Shown here piece by piece: positions 2,671 to 64,000 of a stretch of DNA of 64,000 nt (position 1 is its first letter; every line of letters starts with the position of its first letter). A program made the position numbers and the translations under genes. The notes under the pieces were generated by a model that did no database searches, was not told where the DNA came from, and saw only the letters and a program-made list of their open reading frames with translations. Origin of the DNA: Novosphingobium kaempferiae (GTDB taxonomy: Bacteria > Pseudomonadota > Alphaproteobacteria > Sphingomonadales > Sphingomonadaceae); the NCBI RefSeq assembly GCF_021227995.1, contig NZ_CP089301.1:3782001-3846000 (forward strand). The letters run 5' to 3'.

Positions 2671-3779
2671 ACCGCTCGATCGTTCCGGAAGCGATCTCGC
2701 GCCAGCCCTGGCAGATGCTGATTCCGCTGTGCGGCCTCGTCGCGCTGGGTGCGGCGGTGCTCTATTCGGCGGCGGGCGGCAGCCTCCAGCCTTACGCGCT
2801 GAGCCATGTGGTGCGCTTCGGCGTGTTCCTCGTCATGGCGATCGTCATCTCGCGGATGAGCCGCAACCTGTTCCGCATGGCCGCCTACCCGGTCTACGGC
2901 GGCATCACGGTCCTGCTGGTGCTGGTCGAGCTGATCGGCGCGGTCGGCGGCGGCAGCCAGCGCTGGCTGAACCTCGGCTTCATGTCGCTCCAGCCTTCGG
3001 AACTGATGAAGCCGGCCATCGTGCTCGTTCTCGCGCGCTTCTACGAGACGCTGCCGCATGCGATGACGGCAAGCTGGCGGGGGCTCGTCCCGGCGGGCGT
3101 GCTGATCGGCGTGCCTGCGCTGTTCGTGCTCATCCAGCCTGACCTCGGCACGGCGACGGCGGTGTGTTTCGGCGGTGTGGTGACGATGTTCCTTGCAGGC
3201 CTTCCGCTCTGGTGGTTCACGAGCGCCGCGGGAGCGCTGCTCGTCATCGCGCCCATCGCGTTCTTCACCCTGCTGCACGACTACCAGCGCAACCGCGTGC
3301 TGGTGTTCCTCGACCCCGAGGGCGATCCGCTCGGCACCGGCTACCACATCACCCAGTCCAAGATCGCCATCGGGTCCGGCGGCATCTTCGGCAAGGGCTT
3401 CGGCAACGGCACGCAGAGCCATCTGCAATACCTGCCCGAACCGCACACCGACTTCGTCTTCGCGACCATGTCGGAGGAGTGGGGCCTGATGGGTGGGCTG
3501 TTCGTGCTGTTCGTGTTCACCGTCGTCATCGGCTGGGGCATGGGCGTCGCGCGGCGCGCGCCGGACCGGTTCTCCAGCCTGCTGGCGGCGGGCATGACGG
3601 CGACGATGTTCTTCTACGTCATGATCAACCTGATGATGGTCATGGGCCTTGCCCCGGTCGTCGGGATTCCCCTGCCTTTCATGAGCCACGGCGGCACCTC
3701 GATGCTCACCAACATGATCTGCCTCGGTACGATCATGGCCGTAAACCGTTGGAATCAGGGGCGCGGCTCGCTGCGCTGA
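2667..3779 (+). CDS. rodA: Peptidoglycan glycosyltransferase RodA (SEDS family)
   Basis: A 370-residue polytopic membrane protein with about ten hydrophobic segments. The SEDS-type core is recognisable: a conserved extracytoplasmic loop around residues 205-275 and the C-terminal run beginning at IPLPFMSHGGTS. In the family it polymerises lipid II glycan strands and pairs with PBP2. The start overlaps the mrdA stop (ATGA), so the two partners are probably made together. It is the last gene of the mre-mrd operon; the tRNA genes follow after about 125 bp. Confidence 0.95.
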   Translation: MNRSIVPEAISRQPWQMLIPLCGLVALGAAVLYSAAGGSLQPYALSHVVRFGVFLVMAIVISRMSRNLFRMAAYPVYGGITVLLVLVELIGAVGGGSQRWLNLGFMSLQPSELMKPAIVLVLARFYETLPHAMTASWRGLVPAGVLIGVPALFVLIQPDLGTATAVCFGGVVTMFLAGLPLWWFTSAAGALLVIAPIAFFTLLHDYQRNRVLVFLDPEGDPLGTGYHITQSKIAIGSGGIFGKGFGNGTQSHLQYLPEPHTDFVFATMSEEWGLMGGLFVLFVFTVVIGWGMGVARRAPDRFSSLLAAGMTATMFFYVMINLMMVMGLAPVVGIPLPFMSHGGTSMLTNMICLGTIMAVNRWNQGRGSLR

Positions 3780-3904
3780 GGGCCCGACGGACGAATGGGC
3801 AAACTTTTTCAAGTTTCCCCTTCCAATGCCGGAATCAGCCGTTATAGGAGCCTCTCCGCCGCCGAATCGGCGGGGCCGCAAGGCCCTTCGAGGACAGGTA
3901 GCGT

Positions 3905-3980
<76 letters not shown>

Positions 3981-4004
3981 TCCTGTCCCCCGGAGATCCT
4001 GTGG

Positions 4005-4080
<76 letters not shown>

Positions 4081-4106
4081 TTACCATCTCCCGCGGACAT
4101 CCGTGG

Positions 4107-4182
<76 letters not shown>

Positions 4183-4218
4183 CCTCCCACACCTTCCCTC
4201 TCCTGATGGCAAGTCATC

Positions 4219-4242
4219 GCTCTGTGCGCTGCCGCACAGGGC
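4219..4242 (+). terminator. Hairpin after the tRNA array, possible terminator
   Basis: A 10-bp GC-rich stem (GCTCTGTGCG with CGCACAGGGC, one G-T pair) and a 4-nt loop lie 37 nt after the last tRNA. No T-tract follows, so it may serve as a processing or Rho-linked stop, or may be incidental. Confidence 0.3.
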
Positions 4243-4324
4243 TCATGCGCAAACACCCGTAGATGGCACGGGTCGTCCTCCAATATCCCGGTCCCTCGCA
4301 CCGCAGGTGAACAGGGAGATGGGC

Positions 4325-5158
4325 ATGAACGGGAACGACCTCGATCGCCGTGATATCCTTCGAGCCGCTGGCGCCGCCGCGCTTGCCGCGCCCGCCATCG
4401 CAGCGCTGAGCACGGAAGCACAGGCCGCCAAGCCCGCTTCAGGCATGTCCGCTGCTCAGCGCAACAGCGCGCCGCTCGGTGCCCGGCTCCAGGGCATCCA
4501 GCATTTCGGCCTGACCGTGCAGAACATGGAGCGCGCCTTCGAGTTCTACACGCAGGTGCTCGGCGGGACCGAGGTGTTCCGCCATGGCGACTTCCAGGGC
4601 GACCAGGTCCAGAACACCCTGCTCGCCGACCAGGAGATCATCGCCACCGAACTCGGCGTCAATCCCCGCACGATGGGCGTGCCCGACCTGCGTGGCGGGG
4701 CGCAGCGCCTCGACGTGCGCTTCGTCCAGTTCGACAACGTGGTGGTGGAACTGCTGCAGTACCGCGACGCCGACCAGCCGATGGGCGGGCCGCGCGCCTT
4801 CGCCGAGCCGGTCGAGCACATGAGCCCGGCCTATCCGCGCATGATGCATATCTGCTTCTATGTCGGCGACGACGTGGACTTCAACAAGTTCATCACCGAC
4901 CTCGAAGCCGAATCGGCGCGGCGCGGAATGACGCAGGTGCGCGCCAACCGCTCGATCCGCGTGACCACGGAACAGGAGCGCAAGGCCGCACCGCAGGACG
5001 CCAACACCACGAAGGTGACCGAGGAGCCCTCCACCGGCTGGGAACTCATCTACTGCAAGGGCCCGGAAGGCGAGCAGCTGGAATTCGTGAAGGCGCTCGG
5101 CCCGGTGAAGAAGCGCTTCGCCGACGCCCTCGCCGCTCGCAAGCGCGCCGCTTCCTGA
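4325..5158 (+). CDS. Tat-exported VOC (glyoxalase-fold) family protein
   Basis: A 277-residue protein with a twin-arginine signal (DRRDILRAAG at about residues 6-15, then an Ala-rich stretch ending near AQA). A VOC/glyoxalase-fold domain follows, from about residue 55 (IQHFGLTVQNMERAFEFYTQ) to about 260. VOC proteins bind a divalent metal and include dioxygenases, lyases and isomerases; the substrate cannot be told from sequence. ATG 4325 is preferred because AGGGAG at 4313-4318 is 6 nt upstream; GTG 4307 and ATG 4319 are also in frame. Tat export suggests the metal or fold is set in the cytoplasm. The small monooxygenase-fold gene 26 nt downstream is probably co-transcribed. Confidence 0.8.
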   Translation: MNGNDLDRRDILRAAGAAALAAPAIAALSTEAQAAKPASGMSAAQRNSAPLGARLQGIQHFGLTVQNMERAFEFYTQVLGGTEVFRHGDFQGDQVQNTLLADQEIIATELGVNPRTMGVPDLRGGAQRLDVRFVQFDNVVVELLQYRDADQPMGGPRAFAEPVEHMSPAYPRMMHICFYVGDDVDFNKFITDLEAESARRGMTQVRANRSIRVTTEQERKAAPQDANTTKVTEEPSTGWELIYCKGPEGEQLEFVKALGPVKKRFADALAARKRAAS

Positions 5159-17980: not shown

Positions 17981-18403
17981 ATGGCCCGTTTCCTCATCGT
18001 CGAGGCCCGCTTCTACGACCACTTCAACGACATGCTGATCGCAGGAGCCAAGGCGGCTCTCAAGGCCACCGGACACAGGGCAGACGTCATCACCGTGCCG
18101 GGCGCGCTGGAAATCCCCGCGGCAATCTCGCTTGCAGACGCGACCGGTGACTACGATGGCTACGTCGCAATCGGCGTGGTCATTCGCGGCGAGACCTACC
18201 ATTTCGAGATCGTCGCCGGTGAAAGCGCACGTGGCATCATGGCGCTGACGATGGACGGCATCGCCATCGGCAACGGCATCCTGACGGTCGAGAACGAGGA
18301 ACAGGCAGTGGTGCGCGCCGATTCCACACAAAAGGACAAGGGTGGCGAAGCTGCAAAGGCTGCGGTTGCGCTGTACGAACTCAAGGAACGCTTCGGCGCC
18401 TGA
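17981..18403 (+). CDS. ribH: 6,7-dimethyl-8-ribityllumazine synthase
   Basis: A 140-residue lumazine synthase, the usual size. It condenses the DHBP made by the upstream RibB with 5-amino-6-ribitylamino-uracil. Recognisable segments are [10 protein letters not shown] (residues 44-53), a region [16 protein letters not shown] with the active-site His, and [13 protein letters not shown]. The start follows an AAGGA. With ribB it forms a two-gene riboflavin unit closed by a strong hairpin; ribD, ribE and ribA are not in the window. Confidence 0.95.
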
Positions 18404-18449: not shown

Positions 18450-18608
18450 ATGTATTTTTACGTGAATCGAATAATTCTTACCAAGAATTCCATGATGTAA
18501 ATCCCATTTCAAAATGTTCACATGTAGGACATTCCGAAATTGGCGATTCCCAATTTGTCCTCTTCGTGTAGTCGGATCTCAGGTGCTTCCGATTTTGTTC
18601 GAAAACGG
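18450..18608. other. AT-rich intergenic stretch with two small palindromes
   Basis: This stretch is clearly more AT-rich than its surroundings. It carries AATTCTT-ACC-AAGAATT (18473-18489) and AAATTGG-CGATTC-CCAATTT (18537-18556). Both could be operators for the small gene or the winged-helix regulator downstream. No promoter hexamers stand out. Confidence 0.4.
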
Positions 18609-48367: not shown

Positions 48368-50680
48368 ATGGCTAAGGCGCGTCGCATGACCGGAATCACC
48401 CCTGACGTCGTCGAGGCGCATGGCCTCAATCCCGAAGAATACGAGCGTGTGCTGCACGCGCTGGGACGAGAGCCGAACCTCGTGGAACTCGGCATCTTCT
48501 CGGTGATGTGGTCGGAGCACTGCTCGTACAAGTCGAGCCGCTTCCACCTCAAGAAGCTGCCGACCAAGGCCCCCTGGGTCATCTGCGGCCCCGGCGAGAA
48601 CGCGGGCGTGATCGACATCGGCGACGGTCAGGCCGCCATCTTCAAGATGGAAAGCCACAACCATCCCAGTTATATCGAGCCTTATCAAGGCGCTGCGACC
48701 GGCGTGGGCGGCATCCTGCGCGACGTCTTCACGATGGGCGCGCGCCCCGTCGCCAACATGAACGCCCTGCGTTTCGGCCGTCCCGACCACCCGAAGATGA
48801 AGCATCTCGTCAAGGGCGTGGTCGCGGGCATCGGCGGCTACGGCAACTGCGTGGGCGTTCCCACGGTCGGCGGCGAGACGAACTTCCACAAGGCCTATGA
48901 CGGCAACATCCTCGTCAATGCGATGACCGTCGGCGTCGCCGATACCGACAAGATCTTCTATTCGGCGGCCACCGGCCTCGGCAATCCGATCGTCTACGTC
49001 GGCTCCAAGACCGGCCGCGACGGCATCCACGGCGCCACCATGGCATCGGCCGATTTCGACGAGAATTCCGAGGAAAAGCGCCCGACCGTGCAGGTCGGCG
49101 ACCCTTTCACCGAGAAGCTGCTGATCGAGGCCTGTCTCGAACTGATGGCGACCGACGCCATCGTCGCGATCCAGGACATGGGCGCGGCCGGCCTCACCTC
49201 CTCGTCGGTCGAAATGGCCAGCAAGGGCGGCGCGGGCGTCCGCCTCAACATGAACGCCGTCCCCTGCCGCGAAGAGGCGATGACGCCTTACGAAATGATG
49301 CTGAGCGAGAGCCAGGAGCGCATGCTCATGGTCCTCCAGCCCGGCAAGGAAGCCATGGCGGAAGCCATCTTCCGCAAGTGGGAACTGGACTTCGCGGTCA
49401 TCGGCGAAGTGACCGATACCGGCCACATGGTGCTGGAATTCAACGGCGAAGTGGTCTGCGACATCCCGCTCGGCCCGCTCGCCGACGACGCGCCGGAATA
49501 CGAGCGGCCCTACGTTTCGCCCGAGGAATACAAGGTCTGGGCTGCCGTCCCGGCGCTCGGTGAAGTCACCGAAAGCACGGATCTCGGTGCGGACCTCTTC
49601 AAGCTCATGGGCGGCGCGGACCTCGCCTCGCGCAAATGGATCTGGGAGCAGTACGACAGCCAGGTCGGCGCGGACACGATGCAGAAGTCGGGCGGCGACG
49701 CCGCCGTCGTGCGCGTCCACGGTACGCGCAAGGCACTGGCGATCAGCACCGACTGCTCGCCGCGCTACTGCTACGCCGACCCCTACGAGGGCGGCAAGCA
49801 GGCGGTGGCCGAGACCTACCGCAACATCAGCGCGGTCGGCGGCCTGCCGCTGGCGATCACCAACTGCCTGAACTTCGCAAACCCGCAGCGTCCGCAGATC
49901 ATGGCGCAGATCGTCGGCTGCCTGAACGGCATGGGCGATGCCTGCCGTGCGCTCGACTACCCGATCGTCTCGGGCAACGTGTCACTCTACAACGAGTCCA
50001 AGGCCACCGGCGGCGGCTCGGCGATCCTGCCGACCCCGGCAATCGGCGGCGTCGGCATCCTCGCCGACCACGACAAGATGGCGACCGTCGCGTTCAAGGC
50101 CGAGGGCGAGGATATCTTCCTCCTCGGCGGCGAAGGCACGCACCTCGGCCAGTCGCTCTGGCTGAAGGACATCGCAGGGCAGGAAGCCGGCGAAGCGCCT
50201 CAGGTCGACCTCAAGCTTGAAGCCCACAACGGCGGCGTGGTCCGTGGCTGGGTCGGCGAAGGCAAGGTCACTGCCGTCCACGACATCAGCGATGGCGGCC
50301 TCCTCGTCGCTCTGGCGGAAATGGCGCTGGCCAGCGGCCTCGGCTGCACGCTCGACGCCGATCTCACCACGGCGCAGGCCTTCGGCGAAGACCAGTCGCG
50401 CTACGTGCTGACGGCACCCGCCGGTACGGTTCTGCCGGAAGCCGTGAAGATCGGCACCGTCGGCGGAACCAAGGTCGCGGGCGTCGAGATCGCCGCGCTG
50501 CGCCAGGCCAACGAGGCTTTCTTCAAGGAGTGGATGGAGCAAAGACAAAGCAAAAGGCCCCGAAAGGGGCCTTTCTTGCGTCTGTACTCCACGCATCGCG
50601 GGACCGGCACGCTGATGCGCCCGGCCCCACACAACCCCCGCCTAAGCGCCGAAACCGCCGTCAATCGTCTGCTTGGGTAG
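48368..50680 (+). CDS. purL: Phosphoribosylformylglycinamidine synthase subunit PurL, with a C-terminal read-on extension
   Basis: A small-type PurL (770 aa as encoded) of purine synthesis, acting with PurQ and PurS. It has the N-terminal [23 protein letters not shown], and the second half beginning at [14 protein letters not shown]. The normal family end is near residue 724 (FFKEWME). Here CAA replaces the expected stop, and the frame runs on 46 residues, straight through the terminator hairpin, ending only inside a pseudogene remnant. A single TAA-to-CAA change would explain it. The core enzyme should still fold. Confidence 0.93.
50553..50574 (+). terminator. purL terminator, now inside the open reading frame
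   Basis: A perfect 9-bp stem AAAGGCCCC/GGGGCCTTT with a GAAA loop and a following TTTCTT. It starts 13 nt after codon 724 of purL, where the stop would be expected, and is translated as part of the extended frame. Confidence 0.85.
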
Positions 50681-50840
50681 CACCAGCACGGGAGCCGGCG
50701 CCCCCCGCTTCCGGTATCGTGACGGTCCGACCTCTCGCGAGCAGGCGGCGCGCCATCGTAATGGCAGCGACGCCGCCACCGACGATGCAGATGTCCGTCG
50801 CGTAAGTGGAGAAGTCGGTCTTTTCGAAATCCAGATGCAT
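50661..50840 (-). pseudogene. N-terminal remnant of an FAD-dependent GMC-type oxidoreductase
   Basis: A 59-residue frame (MHLDFEKTDFSTYATDICIVGG...) contains a dinucleotide-binding motif: ICIVGGGVAAITMARRLLARG, then VTIPEAGG. This is how GMC-family and related flavoproteins begin. It then degenerates and stops. Such enzymes are normally 500-570 residues, so about nine tenths is missing. It overlaps the extended end of purL by 20 nt and faces the operator-like palindrome at 50929. A short open frame of its own, but no plausible function. Confidence 0.7.
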
Positions 50841-50928: not shown

Positions 50929-50950
50929 AACATTGATTCTTCCCAATGTT
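50929..50950. promoter_or_regulatory. Regulon palindrome, site A
   Basis: AACATTG-ATTCTTCC-CAATGTT, perfect 7-bp arms with an 8-bp spacer. It lies 105 bp before the ATG of the response regulator gene at 51055 and 89 bp before the divergent flavoprotein remnant. Sites B (53891-53914) and C (58361-58384) share arms and the TCC next to the right arm. Confidence 0.7.
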
Positions 50951-51054
50951 GGCGCGCAGGCCTGCGAAGCACGCGGGATATGGCTGCATCCGCGAGTTGG
51001 GTCGGATCGAAACTCACGCTAACGGAACGGCGCAGAAGAAGGCTGAAGGGTGCG

Positions 51055-51729
51055 ATGCGCATATTGCTGATAGAGGACGACGCCGAGATGGCCGGCTTCA
51101 TCACAGATGGGCTGGCGCTGCAGGGCCATGTCACGCTGACCGAGCAGGAAGGGCGTCAGGGGCTGCGCCGTGCGCAAGGCGAGAACTGCGATGTCCTGAT
51201 CGTCGACCGCATGCTGCCGGATATCGACGGGACCGATCTCGTTTCGGAGATGCGCGGGCTGGGTCTTTCCGAACCGATCCTGATGCTGACATCCCTCGGC
51301 GCGATCGAGGACCGCGTGAAGGGGCTTGGAAGCGGTGCGGACGACTATCTCGTCAAGCCTTTCGCGATGGCCGAACTGTGCGCGCGCATCGATGCTCTCA
51401 GTCGTCGCGGACGGGGAGGTCTCGGCGATACGGCGGCATGCGGCACCATCAAGATCGACAGGGTCCGCAGGGACGTGTGGCGCGAAGGGCAGAGGATCGT
51501 CCTCCAGCCGCGGGAGTTCGAACTGCTGGAACAACTCATCCGCCAGCAGGACCAGGTGGTTTCGCGCGCGATGCTGCTGGAACAGGTCTGGCATTTCCAT
51601 TTCGATCCGCAGACCAATATCGTGGAAACGCACATGAGCCGTCTGCGGCAGAAGCTGAACGCGGGTTTCGAGCGCGATCCGATAGTTACCGTGCGCGGGG
51701 TAGGCTACAAGCTGCGCAGCGATGTCTGA
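51055..51729 (+). CDS. OmpR/PhoB-family response regulator
   Basis: A 224-residue regulator. The receiver domain (1 to about 115) has the acidic pocket EDD at 7-9, phospho-acceptor Asp51 in VLIVDRMLPDIDG and the switch Lys in DDYLVKPFA. A winged-helix DNA-binding domain follows (about 125-224, SRLRQKLNAGFERDPIVTVRGVGYKL). ATG 51055 has GAAGG upstream; the frame is open earlier but crosses site A. The last codons overlap the kinase gene by 8 nt, so this is its cognate regulator. Confidence 0.93.
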   Translation: MRILLIEDDAEMAGFITDGLALQGHVTLTEQEGRQGLRRAQGENCDVLIVDRMLPDIDGTDLVSEMRGLGLSEPILMLTSLGAIEDRVKGLGSGADDYLVKPFAMAELCARIDALSRRGRGGLGDTAACGTIKIDRVRRDVWREGQRIVLQPREFELLEQLIRQQDQVVSRAMLLEQVWHFHFDPQTNIVETHMSRLRQKLNAGFERDPIVTVRGVGYKLRSDV

Positions 51730-53083
51730 ACCACGTCACGGCCGCCTTGGGGCGATCACGCGTATCGCGGGCTGGTTCGTCGTGTTCTACACGATTGCGA
51801 CGCTGGGACTGGGCGCAACGATCTATATCATCGGCGAAAGCGCATTGCGCGAACAGCTTGACGATCGGATCGCGGCCGAGAGCGACTATCTGGCCGATAT
51901 TCATCGCCACCGTGGCATCGTCGCGCTTCGCGACACGCTGCAACGTCGGGACGACCGCGGCGTCAATGCGCTCGGCTACCTGCTGACGGACGGGAATGGG
52001 CGCAGGCTCGGCGGCGAACTGACGACCGATCGTCCGCGCACCGGGTGGGAGCAGATTCAGTTCCGGGACCAGGATGGCCGACGCAACGTGGCGCGTGCCT
52101 TCACCGTCGATCTGAAGGACGGAAACAGCCTGACGGTGGCGATGGAACTCGCCCCGGAACGTGCGCTGCGCCGCACTACGGCGCTGATCCTGCTCGCAGG
52201 CCTTGGCGCGACGCTGCTGGGCGGGATCATCGGCGGCGTGTGGCTGACCCGCGCGATCCGGTCTCGACTGAGGGCCATGAACGCCACGGCTCAGGGCATC
52301 ATCTCGGGGGATATGAGCCTGCGTATGCCGGTGTCGCAACCCGATGACGAATTCGGCCAGCTTGCCGGGACGCTCAACGCGATGCTGGACCGCAACAGTG
52401 CGCTGATCGAGAATTTGCGGCAGGTTTCCAGCGGCATCGCGCACGACTTGCGCACTCCGCTTGCCAAGGTTCGGCAGAGGCTGGAACGCATGATGGTGCT
52501 GACGCCCGAAGAGGGGGCGTTGCAGGACGAAGTCGAGCGTTCGATCGTCGAAATCGACGCAACTCTGTCACTTTTCAGCGCTTTGCTGCGTATCGCCGAG
52601 GTGGAGGCGGGGGCGTTGAGGCAGTATTTCCGGGTCTTCGACCTCAGCGCCGCCGTCGCCAGCGTCTGCGAGAGCTATGCCGCCGTCGCCGAGGACAGCG
52701 ACAAGTCGCTGACCTGCAGCATCGGCCCGGAAATGCGGGTTCTGGGCGATGCGGAGCTGGTATCGCAGGCTCTCGTCAACCTGCTGGAGAACGCCATCCG
52801 CCATACGCCGCCGCGTTCCAGCATACGTGTAAAGCTGTGCCTGAACGGCACCAAGGTGGTACTGAGCGTGACCGACGATGGCCATGGCGTCCCTGAGCAC
52901 AGGCAGGAACTGCTCAAGCAGCGCTTCACGCGAGGCGACCGATCCCGCGGCAGCCCGGGCTACGGTCTCGGCCTCAATCTCGTCGAGGCGGTGGCTGAAG
53001 TGCATGGCGGTCGCCTCCGCCTGTCGGATGCGGAGCCGGGGCTCCGGGTCGATATCGAGCTGCCACTCGCTGAGCGACCGTGA
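51722..53083 (+). CDS. Sensor histidine kinase (HisKA/HATPase type)
   Basis: A 453-residue inner-membrane kinase. Two membrane segments (about residues 13-35 and 156-178) bound a ~120-residue periplasmic sensor domain. A HAMP domain follows, then the H box GIAHDLRTPLAKVRQ with His241, N box LVNLLENAIRHTPP and G boxes DDGHGVPEH and GYGLGLNL. The sensor domain matches no ligand-binding fold I can name. Given the neighbours, the signal may be the compound handled by the receptor and phosphatase or a periplasmic state; that is inference. Confidence 0.94.
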   Translation: MSEPRHGRLGAITRIAGWFVVFYTIATLGLGATIYIIGESALREQLDDRIAAESDYLADIHRHRGIVALRDTLQRRDDRGVNALGYLLTDGNGRRLGGELTTDRPRTGWEQIQFRDQDGRRNVARAFTVDLKDGNSLTVAMELAPERALRRTTALILLAGLGATLLGGIIGGVWLTRAIRSRLRAMNATAQGIISGDMSLRMPVSQPDDEFGQLAGTLNAMLDRNSALIENLRQVSSGIAHDLRTPLAKVRQRLERMMVLTPEEGALQDEVERSIVEIDATLSLFSALLRIAEVEAGALRQYFRVFDLSAAVASVCESYAAVAEDSDKSLTCSIGPEMRVLGDAELVSQALVNLLENAIRHTPPRSSIRVKLCLNGTKVVLSVTDDGHGVPEHRQELLKQRFTRGDRSRGSPGYGLGLNLVEAVAEVHGGRLRLSDAEPGLRVDIELPLAERP

Positions 53084-53099
53084 CCGCAAGCCCCGCCTG

Positions 53100-53798
53100 T
53101 CACTTGCGGACCATGTAGCCTGCCCCGCGCACGGTGACGATCGGATCGACGCCAACCTGTTCGATCATGCGGCGACGTATCCGGCTTACATGCGCATCGA
53201 CCACTTTCGAACTGGGGGGCGAACCATTTCTCCACACGGTCTCATAGAGCGTCTCGCGCGAGAGGACGGAATCGGCGTTGCGGACGAGTTGCGCCAGCAG
53301 GCGAAATTCCTGCACGGACAGATCCAGCCCGACGCCCCGATACCACGCGCGCAGTCTGCTCGGGCTCACCGTGATATCGTCCGTGCCGATGGTGCCGCCG
53401 CCTTCGGTGGACCAGTTGCGTCGGCGCAGCACCGCTTTGATGCGGGCATGGAGTTCCTCGATGTCGATGGGCTTTACCATGTAGTCGTCGGCACCGCCTT
53501 CCAGACCGTCGATCCTTTCGGCGCTGTCCGCGAAAGCCGCCATCATGATGACAGGCGTCGTCACTCCCTCGTCTCGCAGGCTGCGCACGACGTTGAGGCC
53601 GTCCATTCCGCGCAGCACGAGCCCCAGCACGATGACGTCGAAATCGCCTTCGATCACGGCCCGAAGCGCTGCCTGCCCGTTCGTCAGAAGCGTCACGGCA
53701 TGCCCGACGCTGCGGAGCCTTTGCGAGAGGCTTTCGGCTAGCTGCACGTCGTCCTCGACGATCAGGACATCGTGCAGGACGGTGAAAGGCGGACGCAT
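53100..53798 (-). CDS. OmpR-family response regulator lacking the phospho-acceptor aspartate
   Basis: A 232-residue protein with an OmpR-type receiver (about residues 9-125) and a winged-helix domain (about 135-232, ending VRGAGYMVRK). The acidic pair E15-D16-D17 and Lys109 are kept. The phospho-acceptor position is Gly59 (DVIVLGLVLRGMDG, codon GGG) and the usual switch Thr is Ala87 (PVIMMAAF). It therefore cannot be phosphorylated in the normal way. ATG 53798 is chosen; the longer frame to 53951 crosses site B. It converges on the kinase gene (16 nt apart). Confidence 0.9.
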   Translation of the reverse strand: MRPPFTVLHDVLIVEDDVQLAESLSQRLRSVGHAVTLLTNGQAALRAVIEGDFDVIVLGLVLRGMDGLNVVRSLRDEGVTTPVIMMAAFADSAERIDGLEGGADDYMVKPIDIEELHARIKAVLRRRNWSTEGGGTIGTDDITVSPSRLRAWYRGVGLDLSVQEFRLLAQLVRNADSVLSRETLYETVWRNGSPPSSKVVDAHVSRIRRRMIEQVGVDPIVTVRGAGYMVRK

Positions 53799-53890
53799 CG
53801 GTAAAGGTACTCCTGGCCAGCCAAGCGCCGGAACAGGGCTGACCGGAAGGCTAATGCGACCGCTGCCCGCGATTTGACAGGCCGCCGCCG

Positions 53891-53914
53891 GAACATTGGG
53901 AAGAAGCAATATTC
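53891..53914. promoter_or_regulatory. Regulon palindrome, site B
   Basis: GAACATTG-GGAAGAAG-CAATATTC, 93 bp upstream of the atypical regulator. The GC flanks CCGCCG/CGGCGG extend the pairing to about 14 bp, so it could also work as the 3' hairpin of the phosphatase gene, which ends at 53930. Confidence 0.65.
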
Positions 53915-53929
53915 CGGCGGTTTTCAGGG

Positions 53930-55342
53930 CTATTTGCCGCGCGCCACGCACTTGCCGCCATCGGGCCCGACATTGCCGTTGCAGGTGCGCACCGAGATCA
54001 TCGGTTCGTCGATATCGATAAGGTGATTGCCGTCGGTGCGGCGCTCAAGGTCGAAGCCGTCGTAGAGCCTGCCCGACGCGGTGAAGGTGCGGAACTTCAG
54101 CCGATCCCCCGCCACATCGACCACCTGATAGAGTTCGGTCGCCTCTGCCGTCCGGTCGGGCTGGGTGCGGGCGCGATCGTTGAGGCCGTACATCTTCGAT
54201 CCCGTCACCGAGACGAGATAGACCGGCCCCTGCACCTTGCCGTCCTTGCGCATCGCCGCCGAAGCCTCGCGCCCGGCCTCCGACGTCAGGCGGCTGTAGC
54301 AGTGGTCGTGCCCCTGCAGCACGAGGTCCACCTTGCGGCTTTCGAACACCGGCTTCCACGCCGCCTTCACCTCGGACGTATCCTGCGGACGGGCGCAGGT
54401 GAAGACGGGCTGGTGGAACAGCACGACGTTCCACTTCGCCTTGCTGGATGCCAGCGTCTCGTCCAGCCAGCGGGTCTGCTGCTTCATGGTGCCCAGATCG
54501 ATGGCGGAAGTGCCGTCGAGCACGATGAAGCGCACGCCCTGATAGTCGACGAAATAGGTCGTCGCCTTCACGCCCGGCGCGCCGTTGGCGGGCAGCGCGA
54601 ACTGGAGCGGCCAGTACGGCCCGAGCTTGCGGCTTTCCGCGCCGTTCGGCAGCGCCACGTCGACATATTCGTGATTGCCGGTCGCGGGCACCTGCGGGAC
54701 GATGCCCCAGTTGTAGCCGCCCGCCTGATTGAACTCACCCCATTCGTCATCATGGTCGAGGTCGTCGCGCTGCGCGGCAAGGTCGCCCGCATGGAGCACC
54801 AGTTCGATGCCGCCATTGGCATGGAAGGCCTGCCGGATGACACGGCTGGCATACGTCAGGATGCCGTTCTGGATATCGCCGAGGTAGAGGAAGCGGAACG
54901 GCTTCGCCTCGGCGCTGGCGGTGCGGAACTGCATCCACTCCGTCCAGCCCGCGCTGCCCTTCAACCGATAGGCATAGACGGTGTCCGGCGTCAGGTTCTC
55001 GAAGCGGACCTGATGATAGAGCGCGGGACCGTTGGCGCTGTCCTTCGCGACGCCCGGAGCGCCGGTGACGAGGCTCGCCTTCTCCTCCAGCGTCGGCCCG
55101 TCGACCGCGACGGCGATCTGGGCTTCGCTTGCGCTCTGCGCGGCATCGGTGCGCCACGCGACAGCCATGCCCTTCGTCGGATCGGCAGCGGGCGTCAGCA
55201 TGATCCTGTCGGGCAGGTTACGGGCGGCATAAGGCGTCCCGGCGGAGCGCGGCACGGCCTCCTGGGCGCTCGCGGGTTGAATGAGACAAAGGGCCAGCGC
55301 GCCAAGCGCGACCCGGGCGGACAGACGACGAAGGGATGCCAT
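53930..55342 (-). CDS. Purple-acid-phosphatase-like metallophosphoesterase, exported
   Basis: A 470-residue protein. A signal peptide (residues 1 to about 26, ending PASA) is followed by an N-terminal fibronectin-III-like domain (about 40-140) and a calcineurin-like phosphoesterase domain. The five metal-site blocks are visible: GDIQ at 155-158, HAGD at 184-187, GNHEY at 222-226, FHQP at 309-312 and GHDHCYSR from 344. It should hydrolyse phosphate esters in the periplasm or outside. ATG 55342 is preferred over an earlier start at 55366. It is 77 nt downstream of the receptor gene and probably co-transcribed. Confidence 0.9.
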   Translation of the reverse strand: MASLRRLSARVALGALALCLIQPASAQEAVPRSAGTPYAARNLPDRIMLTPAADPTKGMAVAWRTDAAQSASEAQIAVAVDGPTLEEKASLVTGAPGVAKDSANGPALYHQVRFENLTPDTVYAYRLKGSAGWTEWMQFRTASAEAKPFRFLYLGDIQNGILTYASRVIRQAFHANGGIELVLHAGDLAAQRDDLDHDDEWGEFNQAGGYNWGIVPQVPATGNHEYVDVALPNGAESRKLGPYWPLQFALPANGAPGVKATTYFVDYQGVRFIVLDGTSAIDLGTMKQQTRWLDETLASSKAKWNVVLFHQPVFTCARPQDTSEVKAAWKPVFESRKVDLVLQGHDHCYSRLTSEAGREASAAMRKDGKVQGPVYLVSVTGSKMYGLNDRARTQPDRTAEATELYQVVDVAGDRLKFRTFTASGRLYDGFDLERRTDGNHLIDIDEPMISVRTCNGNVGPDGGKCVARGK

Positions 55343-55419
55343 GGTTCGGTAGCTCCGGAAAAACACGGCGCCGCCGCCCGGCCCGAAGGCAAGGCGGCGG
55401 CGGCAGGACGGGAACGGGA

Positions 55420-58248
55420 TCAGAAGCTCGCGGTCACGCCGAACTTGGCCGTCCAGTTGTACTGCTCATACTGCAGCAGGCGACGTGCCCCGCCAAGGTT
55501 CTGGTAGGCAAAGTACGGCGCATCGGTGACGTTGATCCACTCGGCGAACAGGCGCACGCCCGGCATGACGCGGTACTTGGCGCTGAGATCGAGCTGGAAC
55601 TGGTCGGAGACGTAGCGGTCCTGCTCGGGGGTGCTGCCCAGCTCGTCGAGGTACTTGTCGCGATAGGTGCCCGCCGCGCGCAGCGAGATCGGCCCCTTCT
55701 CGTATCCCAGCACGACGTTGAACGTGTTCTTCGAGGCCGACGCCAGCGGAATGCTGCGCGGATCGGTGATGTCGCCATCGTTAAGCACCGTGCCGCGGGC
55801 ATCGGTGTAGGTGTAGTTGGCGTTGACCAGCAGGCCGTCGAACGGCGCGGGCAGGAACGTGAACGCCTGGCTGTAGGAAACCTCGAAGCCCTTCACCTTG
55901 GCGTTGTCGCCATTGATGAAGCTGGTCAGTTCGTCATAGGCGACGCCGTAGATCGTCCCCGGCGTGCGCGAGCGCTGCTCGACCGTGAAATCCTCGATCG
56001 ACTTCCAGAAGAAGCCCGCCGTCAGCGCCGCATTGTTGCCGAAGTACCATTCGGCCGAAGCGTCGATATTCCATGCGCGATACGGCTTGAGGTTCGGATT
56101 GCCGGTCTCCGCCTCCAGATCCTCGTTCAGCATGAAGCGCGGGGCGAGGCTGGAGAGGTTCGGGCGGACGAGGCTCTTGAACCCGCCGAAACGCAGCACG
56201 AGGTTGCGCACCGGCTCGTAGCGGATCGTCAGACTGGGCAGCCAGTCGGTGTAGTTGCGTATGAAGCGGTTCGGGGTGACGAAGACGGTGTCCTCCTCCA
56301 CCTCGACGCCTTGATATTCCTGCCCTTCCTCGACCACCTGCGTCAGCTTGGCGCGGATGTCGTTGCGGGTCTGCTCCACGCGGACACCGGCGATGATGCG
56401 CACGGTGTCGCTGTCCCAGCGGCCCATCAGGTAGCTGGCGAGGATGTCCTCCTTCACCGAGAAGTCGGCCGAATTGGATTCGACCGCGGTGTCGATCGGG
56501 TTGAGGACGAAGTTGTCGCGATTGGCGTTGAAGAAGTCTGTCGGGCCGCGCTGGCTCGGCAGCGGCAGGATATCCTGGATGCGGTAGGTCTGGCTGCCCA
56601 GCACGTCGGCCAGCGTATAATCGCCGTCATAGTCGTCATAGGCATCGACGCGCTGCGCCAGCGACTTCTTGCGCCAGCGGGCCTTCATGCCCGCCTGCAC
56701 GGTGAAGGTGCCGCTGCCGGTCGCGAACTCGCGGGAGATATCGCCCTTCACCGAATATTCGCGGTCGCGGGCATCGAGCAGGACCGTCTGCTGCAATTCG
56801 TTGAACCCGTAGCTCTCGGGATCGTAGAAGGCATCGGTGTTGCCTGTCACGCTGAAGCGCGGCTTCCTCGGGTTGGCGTAGTCGAAGCCGACCGTGACAT
56901 CGTCGCCCTCCTCGAAGCGGGCACGGAAACGGGTGGGATCGACCGAGCCGTTCTCGCGCTCGCTCGCCTCGGACCAGCTGCCCGAATAGACCGCCTTCCA
57001 CGGCCCCGCCTCGGTCACGCCGCCGATGGTGAGCGACTTGATCTTCTGCTTCTCGAAACGGTCCTTCATGCGGCGGCGCACTTCGACGCGGCCGTCCTCG
57101 GACGAGAACTCTGCGCTGGTGGCGGTGCTGCGGCTCGGCGCCTCGTCGAGCACGAAGATCACGTCGCCGCGATACTCCCGGTCCTCGAACTGGCTGTAGA
57201 GGCCGCGGGCATAGAGCTTGGTCGTGTCCGTCGCCTGCCAGTCGAAGCTGAGCGACCCGCCCATGCGCTTGCGCTCGACGTCGTAGTCACGGTACTGCAT
57301 CTCGGCGGCATAGGCGTTGCCGTTGTCGTCCAGCGCCCAGTCCGCGCCCTCGATGTTGTCGCTCTCGAACTTGCGGCGATAGTAGCTGAAGCCGCCGGCG
57401 ATGCCGAAGCGGTCGGTCACGCGGGTGGAGAAGTCCACGCTGCCCTTGGGCGTCAGCGCATCGGCGTAGTCGTTGTAGCTGCCCTCCAGCTTGACCGAGT
57501 AGAGATCCTTCTTGCGGTCGAAGGCGCTGGTGGTGTTGATCTCGATGGAGGCGCCGATGGTGTCGCCGTCCATGTCGGGGGTGAGCGACTTCTTCACCTC
57601 GATCGATTCGATCAGCTCGGACGGGATCACGTCCATCGCCACGGTGCGGGTATCGCCCTCGGGGGCAGGAACGCGCACGCCGTTGATCGAGGCGGCGTTC
57701 AGCGACGGATCGAGGCCGCGCACCGACACGAAGCGGCCTTCGCCCTGATCGTTCAGGATGTTCACGCCCGGAAGGCGGCGCAGCGATTCCGCGACGTTCT
57801 GGTCGGGGAACTGGCCGATCGCATCGCGCGTCAGCACGCTCTCCACGCCGTCCGCAGCGCGCTGGCGCGACAGGGCGGAGGACTGGCTGGCGATCTGGCC
57901 GACGACGAGGATGTCCGCCCCGCCGATCCCGGCAAGGGAGAAGTCGCTGGTGACAGTGCCGGTCGCGGGAACCGTGACCGACTGCGTCGTCACCTCGGCC
58001 CCGACGTAGCGCGCCTCCAGCGTGTACGTGCCCGGCGCGACGTCCGCGAAGCGGAAGCTGCCGTCGCGCTCGGCCTGCACGCTGCGGTCCAGTTCGACGA
58101 TGCGCACTTGCGCCGACTGCAGCGCGCGGGTTCCGGTGTCGTCCGACACGGTGCCGCTGACGGTGCCCGCCAACGCCGCTCCGGGCGCCAGAAGTGCAAG
58201 TGCGATGATGCCCCGGCTGCTGTGCCAGAGTGTGCTGCGGATACCCAT
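55420..58248 (-). CDS. TonB-dependent outer-membrane receptor (Caulobacter type)
   Basis: A 942-residue receptor. After the signal peptide (ending LAG near residue 28) comes a carboxypeptidase-regulatory-like beta domain (about 29-105), then a TonB-box-like ILVVG, the plug domain (QFPDQNVAESLRRLPGVNI, FVSVRGLDPSLNAASINGV) and a 22-strand-type barrel ending GVTASF. It belongs to the TIGR01782-like group common in Caulobacter and sphingomonads. It imports a substrate through TonB energy. Its pairing with a phosphatase suggests a phosphorylated or phosphate-linked substrate. Site C is 113 bp upstream. Confidence 0.93.
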   Translation of the reverse strand: MGIRSTLWHSSRGIIALALLAPGAALAGTVSGTVSDDTGTRALQSAQVRIVELDRSVQAERDGSFRFADVAPGTYTLEARYVGAEVTTQSVTVPATGTVTSDFSLAGIGGADILVVGQIASQSSALSRQRAADGVESVLTRDAIGQFPDQNVAESLRRLPGVNILNDQGEGRFVSVRGLDPSLNAASINGVRVPAPEGDTRTVAMDVIPSELIESIEVKKSLTPDMDGDTIGASIEINTTSAFDRKKDLYSVKLEGSYNDYADALTPKGSVDFSTRVTDRFGIAGGFSYYRRKFESDNIEGADWALDDNGNAYAAEMQYRDYDVERKRMGGSLSFDWQATDTTKLYARGLYSQFEDREYRGDVIFVLDEAPSRSTATSAEFSSEDGRVEVRRRMKDRFEKQKIKSLTIGGVTEAGPWKAVYSGSWSEASERENGSVDPTRFRARFEEGDDVTVGFDYANPRKPRFSVTGNTDAFYDPESYGFNELQQTVLLDARDREYSVKGDISREFATGSGTFTVQAGMKARWRKKSLAQRVDAYDDYDGDYTLADVLGSQTYRIQDILPLPSQRGPTDFFNANRDNFVLNPIDTAVESNSADFSVKEDILASYLMGRWDSDTVRIIAGVRVEQTRNDIRAKLTQVVEEGQEYQGVEVEEDTVFVTPNRFIRNYTDWLPSLTIRYEPVRNLVLRFGGFKSLVRPNLSSLAPRFMLNEDLEAETGNPNLKPYRAWNIDASAEWYFGNNAALTAGFFWKSIEDFTVEQRSRTPGTIYGVAYDELTSFINGDNAKVKGFEVSYSQAFTFLPAPFDGLLVNANYTYTDARGTVLNDGDITDPRSIPLASASKNTFNVVLGYEKGPISLRAAGTYRDKYLDELGSTPEQDRYVSDQFQLDLSAKYRVMPGVRLFAEWINVTDAPYFAYQNLGGARRLLQYEQYNWTAKFGVTASF

Positions 58249-58360
58249 TGTCTGCCCCCTTGAGGATGCCTGCGGTAATGCGCAGGCTGTCGGGGCGGCC
58301 TAGTCGATGCGCGACATGACGCTTCTGTTACAATCCGGGCAAAGACCTGTCCCGAGCATC

Positions 58361-58384
58361 GAACATTGGGACTTTTCAATGTTC
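58361..58384. promoter_or_regulatory. Regulon palindrome, site C
   Basis: GAACATTG-GGACTTTT-CAATGTTC, perfect 8-bp arms (9 with flanking C/G), 113 bp upstream of the receptor gene and 46 bp after the stop of the gene at 58431-59234. Confidence 0.7.
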
Positions 58385-63032: not shown

Positions 63033-64000
63033 TCATTGTGCGATTTCCTCACCGGAAAGGTAGATCGGGTTCGAATAGAACCACAGATCACGCCACGGAT
63101 CCTCTCCGGCGACATCGGGTTCGGGTTCACCCTGCTCCGTATTCGTGCCCCGGACGCGCAGATAGGTCGTTCCCTTCGAAACCTTCATTCGCAGAGATAC
63201 GAGAATATCTTCCCCATCGGCCCGAAAGTCACGCGATGTGAAGCGTCTGACGATCCGGGTACTGTCGTTATGGTCACCCTCAACACCCGAAGCTCCTCCT
63301 GCGATCAGGTCCAGGTGGTCGACTTTCGGCAATTGCCCAGCGGCATTCGGAGTGCGCGCAGGACGGAAGCGAATGGAGATATCGAGTTCGTCACCGTCGC
63401 GTATCGCCAGCGTTTGCCCCATGGTCGCGGTCCTTGGCGATGTCGGCCCGATTGCCGCCTTGACCTCCAGTTGGTCGACCAGATTGCCGGTGGCGACGAA
63501 AACACGCCCATTGCGCAGACCATCGAGTATGTCCGGGGCGTTCGGCTCGGCGAAGACCCAGGTTTTGGGATACTCCCCCGGCCAGAAGTCGGCGCCGCCC
63601 TCACGCCAGTGACCGTGCGAATCCGAGTTGGCGGTAATGGTCCAGTGCAGCCCTCTCCCGAGAAGCGCATCCCAGGCGCCACCCAGGCGGGCGACCATCT
63701 GGTCGAAACCACCCATCGTCGGGAAACCGCCATACAGGCCGCGAGAGCCGTGCGCCTTGTCCTTGCCTGTTTCCGGTCTGGCAGCCTGATGCCCCGGCGC
63801 GCCTTCCATGCCGATAACGACATTCGGAGCGGCCTCCTGCCACGCCTGATACTCGGCAGGCGTGTGCAGGCCCCATTCGCCATAGCCGGTCGCCGTTCGG
63901 GAGGGATGATTGGCGATGAGAACCGGCGGAACGGGCAGTCCGGCCATGTATCGCAGCGCTTCGATCATCCTCGCCTTGGTATTGCGTGAAGGATCGGCAG
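63033..64000 (-). CDS. PHP-type phosphoesterase-like protein, C-terminal part (partial)
   Basis: The frame is open to the window edge, and 322 codons are visible. The segment VLIANHPSRT near the left of the visible part and the later TITANSDSHGHW are characteristic of PHP (CehA/McbA-like) metal-dependent phosphoesterases. A C-terminal beta domain of about 140 residues follows (GRVFVATGNLVDQLEVKA ... DLWFYSNPIYLS). It probably hydrolyses a phosphate ester or related bond. The N-terminal metal ligands lie outside the window. It is first of the minus-strand series of receptors and phosphatase. Confidence 0.75.
   Translation of the reverse strand, partial: ADPSRNTKARMIEALRYMAGLPVPPVLIANHPSRTATGYGEWGLHTPAEYQAWQEAAPNVVIGMEGAPGHQAARPETGKDKAHGSRGLYGGFPTMGGFDQMVARLGGAWDALLGRGLHWTITANSDSHGHWREGGADFWPGEYPKTWVFAEPNAPDILDGLRNGRVFVATGNLVDQLEVKAAIGPTSPRTATMGQTLAIRDGDELDISIRFRPARTPNAAGQLPKVDHLDLIAGGASGVEGDHNDSTRIVRRFTSRDFRADGEDILVSLRMKVSKGTTYLRVRGTNTEQGEPEPDVAGEDPWRDLWFYSNPIYLSGEEIAQ

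Follow-up and report, generated by a model that had tools for sequence, protein, structure and literature searches.

A 64,000-nucleotide stretch of the genome of Novosphingobium kaempferiae, a member of the Sphingomonadaceae (contig NZ_CP089301.1, positions 3782001-3846000; hereafter the window), carries a two-component system (TCS), an atypical second regulator, a TonB-dependent receptor and a phosphatase-like gene, with near-identical palindromes ahead of three of the start codons. A sequence-only reading of the window took the palindromes for one operator, shared by an undescribed module that senses, imports and dephosphorylates a single substrate. The locus raises the question of whether the palindromes are indeed operators, which regulator would bind them, and how constant the set of genes behind them is. 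We find that they are probably the operators of the locus's own TCS, formed by the response regulator RR1 and the histidine kinase HK, judging by their rarity and by their recurrence ahead of related regulators. The features on which the argument turns are the following:

50929..50950: site 1, AACATTG-ATTCTTCC-CAATGTT, found by pattern match and matrix
51055..51729, plus strand: RR1, OmpR-family response regulator
51722..53083, plus strand: HK, membrane histidine kinase with sensor, HAMP, HisKA (just under cut-off) and HATPase parts
53100..53798, minus strand: RR2, OmpR-family regulator with a pseudo-receiver in which Gly replaces the phospho-acceptor Asp
53891..53914: site 2, AATATTG-CTTCTTCC-CAATGTT, read toward RR2, found by pattern match and fold scan
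53930..55366, minus strand: PAP, purple-acid-phosphatase-like metallophosphatase (longest frame)
55420..58248, minus strand: TonB-dependent receptor of the TonB-Xanth-Caul subfamily TIGR01782 (above cut-off), with a carboxypeptidase-regulatory-like N-domain
58361..58384: site 3, AACATTG-AAAAGTCC-CAATGTT, read toward the TonB receptor, found by pattern match and matrix

Three palindromes and their recurrence ahead of related regulators

The pattern AAYATTGNNNNNTCCCAATRTT matches without mismatch at 50929-50950 (+), 53892-53913 (-) and 58362-58383 (-), confirming the three inverted repeats of the sequence-only reading, and even at up to three mismatches these are its only places in the window, where shuffles lead one to expect 0.03. 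All three sites end in TCCCAATGTT when each is read on the strand of its downstream gene, and they lie 105, 93 and 113 bp ahead of the start codons of RR1 (51055), RR2 (53798) and the TonB receptor (58248), in agreement with the spacing first proposed. Site 1 also stands 89 bp ahead of an opposite-strand GMC oxidoreductase remnant, and site 2 directly follows the PAP stop codon, with arms that extend to 14 bp (53885-53898 / 53907-53920; 93% complementary) and could form a hairpin in the PAP transcript. The sequence-only reading had called for a whole-genome scan: in the single contig of 5,698,134 bases, AAYATTG-N8-CAATRTT at up to one mismatch falls at the three sites only, rather than at dozens of places, and its reversed control nowhere.

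Looser descriptions of the site gave a slightly wider picture. For the relaxed core ATTGGG-N6-CAAT the genome contains six places versus two for its reversed control, namely the three sites, a place at 18536 and two others with no recognised tie to the RR1-HK system. With a matrix made solely from sites in other genomes (11 in all), the three sites take the first three ranks in the window (32.7, 32.5 and 27.2 bits), followed by 22.5 bits at 18536 and 8.1 bits for the next best position. The claim that the element is restricted to this locus therefore holds for the strict pattern, whereas the relaxed core and the matrix both point to a fourth place:

18536..18557: possible weak fourth box, GAAATTGGCGATTCCCAATTTG, found by relaxed core and by the matrix from other genomes

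This lies in an AT-rich spacer 3' of a gene ending at 18403 (ribH-like by eye) and more than 500 bp ahead of the next called plus-strand gene.

The core of the element is a 16-bp inverted repeat, ATTGGG-N4-CCCAAT (6-4-6), with AAC/GTT flanks, and several relatives carry ATTGGG-N4-TGTAAT or similar (e.g., ATTGGG-AAAT-TGTAAT in L219; L numbers denote loci, G numbers genomes). We built a symmetrised matrix from 14 training sites chosen by eye in the window, L044, L045, L143, L075, L085, L086, L088 and L092, and tested it at a threshold of 18 bits on 20 loci fetched after training. Nineteen of these, with 21 regulators, were counted; L222 was omitted, as its regulator begins 24 bases from the contig end, and among the loci counted L206 is from the same genome as the training locus L143 and L219 from the same plasmid as L234. 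Eight matches fell within the 6,321 positions lying up to 300 bp upstream of the 21 regulators versus one in 328,702 positions elsewhere, and 200 symmetric column permutations of the matrix gave means of 0.03 and 0.125, respectively. The upstream matches come from six of the 19 new loci (L208, L210, L211, L214, L215 and L219), and the single match elsewhere is the box on the DedA side of the second P6W copy (L206). Likewise, 20 of 47 regulators, with the training loci counted, have the half-site ATTGG[GA]A in their upstream 250 bp, where letter shuffles give 1.57 and 2.4% of random 250-mers contain it.

The box is also clustered by relationship among the regulators. In a tree of 46 of them the box label, given to 23 on the basis of matrix matches together with half-conserved boxes judged by eye (L074, L075, L083, L087, L088, L090, L207 and L212), is clustered, requiring 8 changes versus 15.6 when labels are shuffled, with none of 500 shuffles as low. 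RR1 and the regulators of L044, L045, L143 and L073, which are those of N. resinovorum, N. guangzhouense, P6W and G125, form a clade with good support, and a box is present at every cluster of this clade. Part of the gene calls in the relatives' genomes come from our own caller, based on GC content at third codon positions, rather than from curated annotation.

The reach of the operator was delimited with exact searches. The core ATTGGGAATTNCCAAT was matched in 5 of the 199 family genomes searched and in 3 of 190 from the class (control 0). Three of the five family matches lie at such a TCS, all of them already in the training set; no such TCS was recognised within 3 kb of the other two or of the three class matches, which therefore give no evidence of the operator beyond the family. 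The exact palindrome is found in the 199 family genomes at ten places in nine genomes besides the window's three sites; tblastn of eight window proteins on these ten 3-kb loci returned no TCS and only a weak match in L008, to the second TonB receptor. The outer arms alone are therefore not diagnostic. The shorter ACATTG-N8-CAATGT, searched in the genus, matches 19 of 195 genomes, with four of the matches (G000, G218, G247 and G257) at this TCS, and in six of the remaining 15 that were inspected (L150-L154 and L161) tblastn found no such TCS.

Taken together, the rarity of the sites and the enrichment of matrix matches upstream of related regulators make the proposal of one shared operator well supported at the level of sequence, least firmly for site 2, and the half-site upstream of 20 of the 47 regulators lends weight to the self-regulation that had been suggested.

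The regulators, the phosphatase and the receptor

RR1 has a receiver (PF00072) and a winged helix (PF00486), both above cut-off. Its nearest NCBIfam model is the heavy-metal regulator subfamily TIGR01387, at 198.1 bits below the cut-off of 279.2, and that of HK is the heavy-metal sensor subfamily TIGR01386, at 172.1 bits below the cut-off of 292.55. The sensor part of HK was modelled as a small beta-sheet domain flanked by helices (mean pLDDT, predicted local distance difference test, of 81); a fold search with it gave no match at E <= 0.001 (best 1.1e-3), and the weak matches are PAS/PDC-like, among them the sensor domains of WalK, TlpB and sporulation kinase D. In 30 sequences, window included, the invariant periplasmic residues of HK include R76, R79, N82, G85 and Y86, and no His, Met or Cys is found among the invariant or near-invariant ones.

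The Gly at the phospho-acceptor position of RR2 is kept in its five nearest homologues (P0001-P0005; 60-97% identical), and farther relatives have Asp (P0006, P0008, P0009, P0012 and P0014) or Glu (P0013; 45%), in a comparison in which 11 of 28 homologue matches were aligned. By this alignment RR2 is a conserved pseudo-receiver regulator. In two protein searches the best homologues of RR2 and those of HK come from genomes with matching longest contigs (27,864, 23,931 and 303,480 bases), and RR2 and HK may therefore travel together. The small subfamily can also be told by LR instead of the canonical LP after the acceptor (VLGLxLR), down to 60% identity.

PAP has an N-terminal purple acid phosphatase domain (PF16656) and a Metallophos domain (PF00149), both above cut-off, with a probable ATG start near 55342 as judged by eye, and it aligns with the purple acid phosphatase chain 1xzw at E 1.8e-14. 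The Tyr of the GDxxY motif is the purple-colour ligand of purple acid phosphatases; in the window protein Ala replaces it (GDLAA versus GDLSY in 1xzw), and we therefore name the protein purple-acid-phosphatase-like. Between this gene and that of the TonB receptor lies a further element:

55365..55403, minus strand: GC-rich hairpin followed by TTTTT, a possible attenuator

The hairpin folds with a z score of -2.39 and is listed by a terminator scan, the total of which, however, is 2 versus 4.3 in shuffles. Thus, the receptor and the phosphatase adjoin each other as expected of the single unit first proposed, but their cotranscription is not assured, with the hairpin and its five T residues standing between them.

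On the left the locus is bordered by housekeeping genes, coaD- and purL-like by eye, and by the remnant already mentioned:

50661..50840, minus strand: remnant of a GMC oxidoreductase N-terminus, with a stop after 59 codons, compared with the P6W protein

Longer GMC oxidoreductase relatives follow a box in N. guangzhouense and P6W. To the right, past a second TonB receptor and a TetR-type regulator, a minus-strand frame at 63033-63968 resembles, by eye, a PHP-type metal-dependent phosphoesterase; no matrix match lies ahead of it. Nowhere in the window was a metal-resistance gene recognised beside the TCS.

Several known systems resemble this arrangement. For AgrR, PMC7380067 describes a box in which ATTACA is imperfectly repeated in inverted orientation (6-4-6 spacing), and it notes that the inverted repeats bound by CopR and PcoR lie within 16 bp. 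CusR, CopR and CzcR act through ATTCATnnATGTAAT, and the CusR regulon is called very restrictive, according to PMC11195947. The 6-4-6 layout, shared with the AgrR/CopR boxes and, for AgrR, extending to the outer ATT...AAT, therefore makes the sites look like an operator of a known kind with a new half-site, ATTGGG in place of ATTACA or similar. A palindromic box both before the operon of the regulator itself and before targets close by is a further likeness, as is, for CusR, a very small regulon; the operator here, however, probably acts on a TonB receptor, a phosphatase and a pseudo-receiver regulator and not on genes for copper, silver or zinc resistance. Of the marks of the heavy-metal class, then, the locus has the OmpR receiver with winged helix and, by sequence, an inverted repeat with a 16-bp core in the regulator's own promoter, and it lacks subfamily scores above cut-off and a metal-resistance operon under the operator. 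Caulobacter offers a parallel, described in PMC8963506: UrpRS has a phytase under its control, and UzcRS governs TonB receptors, efflux genes and others; the UzcR motif, CATTAC-N6-TTAA, is different.

RR1 and RR2 score 166.9 and 164.1 bits with the PhoB equivalog model, below its cut-off of 296.2. The Pho regulon of PhoBR controls phosphatases and transport genes, and PhoB binds direct repeats, in contrast to the inverted repeat found here; no PhoB-like direct repeat was found in the locus, so that the earlier exclusion of PhoB sites stands. As a candidate, the Pho box itself was rejected: the consensus CTGTCATNNNNCTGTCAT has only two matches in the window, each with three mismatches and off-locus, against a chance mean of 3.08. 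In the literature searched, we recognised no publication describing this operator or module.

Boxed clusters in relatives

The closest orthologues of the TCS keep the box with varying gene company. In N. resinovorum VKM B-1172 (RR1 88% and HK 79% identical), boxes end 80 bp ahead of RR1 and 120 bp ahead of an outer-membrane-protein-like gene that faces HK, and there is no PAP. N. guangzhouense has a box ahead of a row of genes for DedA, RR1 and HK, and a GMC oxidoreductase gene lies on the other flank of this box. On the P6W plasmid pP6W1 (L143/L233), strong boxes precede a GMC oxidoreductase gene, annotated as two pieces in L233, and a UppP-DedA-TerC row, the latter box lying just after the PAP stop codon, and a weaker box of 20.6 bits lies between the divergent RR1 and PAP. 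Near the RR1-HK orthologue of G125, a box-like AACGTTGGGAAGAATCAATCTT at 4215 of L073 stands ahead of a 2OG-Fe(II) oxygenase-like gene (3027-4406), which suggests a further type of target.

Further boxed clusters combine the TCS with TonB receptors and three other types of phosphatase. The labels ACP5-like and YncE-like used for them are our own and correspond in Pfam to Metallophos and to matches at or below cut-off, respectively. TonB receptors are found in L085, alone of these types; in L092 and L210, with a YncE-like gene; in L088, with a YncE-like gene and, close by on the opposite strand, a PF04185 phosphoesterase; and in L075, with both an ACP5-like phosphatase and a YncE-like gene. In N. 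pentaromativorans US6-1 (pLA3; L219/L234) a TonB receptor and a metallophosphoesterase are divergent from the TCS, with two boxes between, and L212 has a YncE-like gene, a TonB receptor and an ACP5-like phosphatase, with a half-conserved box ahead of the response regulator. Judged by gene content, receptor and phosphatase form a recurrent pair that this TCS family has joined more than once, with phosphatases of different families. TolC/adaptor/RND genes adjoin boxed distant homologues (L075, L092, L211, L214, L215 and L234) as well as unboxed or half-boxed ones (L074, L076-L078, the first TCS of L208, and L235).

Recurrent clusters of a TonB receptor, a YncE-like propeller and a metallophosphoesterase were seen beside TCSs in L075, L208, L210, L212 and L234, with no YncE-like gene seen in L234, no metallophosphoesterase seen in L210, and that of L208 recognised by eye through its similarity to the L219 protein; we found no published name for them. 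The window resembles them in its receptor, phosphatase, TCS and box (as in L075 and L234, and half-conserved in L212) but differs in that no YncE-like gene was seen in it, as in L234, and in that its PAP is not ACP5-like.

The phosphatase can also be followed on its own. Among four PAP orthologues more than 80% identical, only that of G257 (P6W) has the TCS and the box, and those of G212, G246 and G277 have neither in 18-19 kb. At six of six Novosphingobium loci (L155-L160) where a PAP paralogue of about 40% identity adjoins a TonB receptor the box is absent, and in L158 a different TCS lies beside such neighbours. By this distribution the operator is tied to the TCS and not to the phosphatase; conservation upstream of orthologues, which the sequence-only reading had proposed as a check, is thus seen ahead of a good part of the related regulators and fails for three of the four PAP orthologues.

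Behind PAP, all four other orthologue loci have a hairpin with 12-16 bp arms (L142 7763-7796, L145 8058-8095, L146 8447-8484 and L143 10474-10505; window 53885-53920), with a loop of 6-8 nt in all five. Its arms equal the box only in the window and L143, and come close to it in L142, with no TCS around. Site 2 and part of its flank are, in turn, nearly identical to the promoter of the N. resinovorum outer-membrane-protein-like gene, suggesting a promoter that stayed in place as a different gene came to stand behind it.

Readings of the locus

We favour, as the probable account, the palindromes as operators of RR1-HK. The sites, their rarity, their recurrence ahead of related regulators and the conserved pseudo-receiver are observed, whereas binding by RR1, the direction of control, the role of RR2, the ligand and the physiology are parts that we infer from the sequences. 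HK would sense a periplasmic signal and then phosphorylate RR1, a symmetric dimer of which would bind the 16-bp ATTGGG-N4-CCCAAT ahead of the three start codons and control rr1-hk itself (autoregulation), RR2 and the TonB receptor. PAP would follow the control of the receptor, perhaps partly uncoupled by the intervening hairpin. The outer-membrane receptor would import a ligand, and PAP would cleave phosphate, outside the cytoplasm, from that ligand or a related phosphoester. RR2, lacking the usual Asp for phosphorylation, would act as a signal-induced, phosphorylation-independent modulator.

A number of observations weigh against this account, in whole or in part. Thirteen of the 19 new loci, L206 included, have no upstream matrix match, the half-site is missing upstream of 27 of the 47 regulators, and some of the 20 half-sites are probably due to chance, e.g., that of L044 at -209, which is not its box, and that of L084. 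No sigma-70-like promoter was found at the three sites. Three of the four close PAP orthologues do without TCS and box, and the hairpins behind PAP in the other orthologue loci mean that site 2 may double as a terminator, and may even mainly serve the end of the PAP transcript. Finally, among the closest TCS orthologues the box is also attached to DedA, to UppP, to a GMC oxidoreductase or to an outer-membrane protein, and the regulon therefore looks wider or more changeable than one that senses, imports and dephosphorylates one substrate. Of the module first proposed, what persists is the association of TCS and box with TonB receptors and phosphatases elsewhere; the import-and-dephosphorylate story, though plausible, is too narrow for the closest relatives.

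The strongest competitor keeps the operator and changes its purpose: RR1-HK would be a diverged member of the CopRS/CusRS/CzcRS systems, sensing metal or envelope stress, with the receptor, PAP, DedA, UppP and efflux genes forming a defence or homeostasis set. We give this a substantial chance, somewhat short of an even one. It is consistent with the heavy-metal subfamilies being the best NCBIfam models for both proteins, with the AgrR/CopR layout of the box and the GTAAT half-site that its ATTGGG-N4-TGTAAT variants share, with the TolC/adaptor/RND genes of boxed and unboxed distant homologues, and with the link to DedA, UppP and a TerC/CorC-type protein in the closest orthologues; moreover, the Caulobacter UrpRS (phytase) and UzcRS (TonB receptors and efflux pumps) respond to U or to U/Zn/Cu, according to PMC8963506. 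Yet RR1 and HK stay well under the subfamily cut-offs given above, the TCS of the window has no recognised metal-resistance gene beside it, and the absence of conserved His, Met or Cys from the periplasmic part of HK speaks mildly against a classical copper or silver sensor.

The other alternatives concern the sites themselves. RR2 rather than RR1 might bind all three constitutively, as an unphosphorylated activator or repressor, given that one site lies in its own promoter and that AgrR, also of the OmpR family, binds DNA and activates while unphosphorylated (PMC7380067). However, the box stands at RR1-type loci where tblastn finds no closer RR2 relative (L044, L045, L143, L073 and more distant ones), and the closest RR2 relatives fetched (L205, L084 and L089) reach at most 7.1 bits, L084 having two isolated half-sites; we hold sole binding by RR2 to be very unlikely, although RR2 could bind instead of, or besides, RR1. 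That the palindromes are terminators or transcript hairpins of chance resemblance, with at least site 2 being the PAP terminator, gains from site 2 folding at z -3.66 right after the PAP stop codon, from the orthologue hairpins, from the TTTT after its extended stem on the plus strand and from the fold of site 3 (z -1.90). Against it, site 1 folds no better than shuffles (z 0.33), no T-run follows sites 1 and 3 on either strand or site 2 on the PAP/RR2 strand, and the terminator scan contains none of the three. Furthermore, distant genomes have the arm sequence itself, beyond its pairing, upstream of regulators and receptors, and the N. resinovorum outer-membrane-protein-like gene has the same box without PAP. 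We hold this reading, too, to be very unlikely.

Going beyond the operators of RR1-HK, one may tentatively picture a TCS family of Sphingomonadaceae, marked by ATTGGG-N4-CCCAAT/TGTAAT, that on several independent occasions took up TonB receptors along with phosphatases of unrelated types. It would mark a so far undescribed way of importing and dephosphorylating a ligand that is phosphorylated or a metal phosphate. In the lineage of the window, a dedicated non-phosphorylatable paralogue, RR2, would have been added under this operator and would form a fixed feedback arm. We regard this wider picture as possible but rather doubtful.

Sphingomonads have very many TonB receptors, for most of which no ligand is known. 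Through an operator recognisable from genome to genome, individual receptors, phosphatases and efflux genes can be assigned to a single sensor family, and the search for their ligands therefore becomes testable. The pseudo-receiver behind the same operator, in turn, offers a natural case of how a phosphorylation-blind regulator shapes a two-component circuit.

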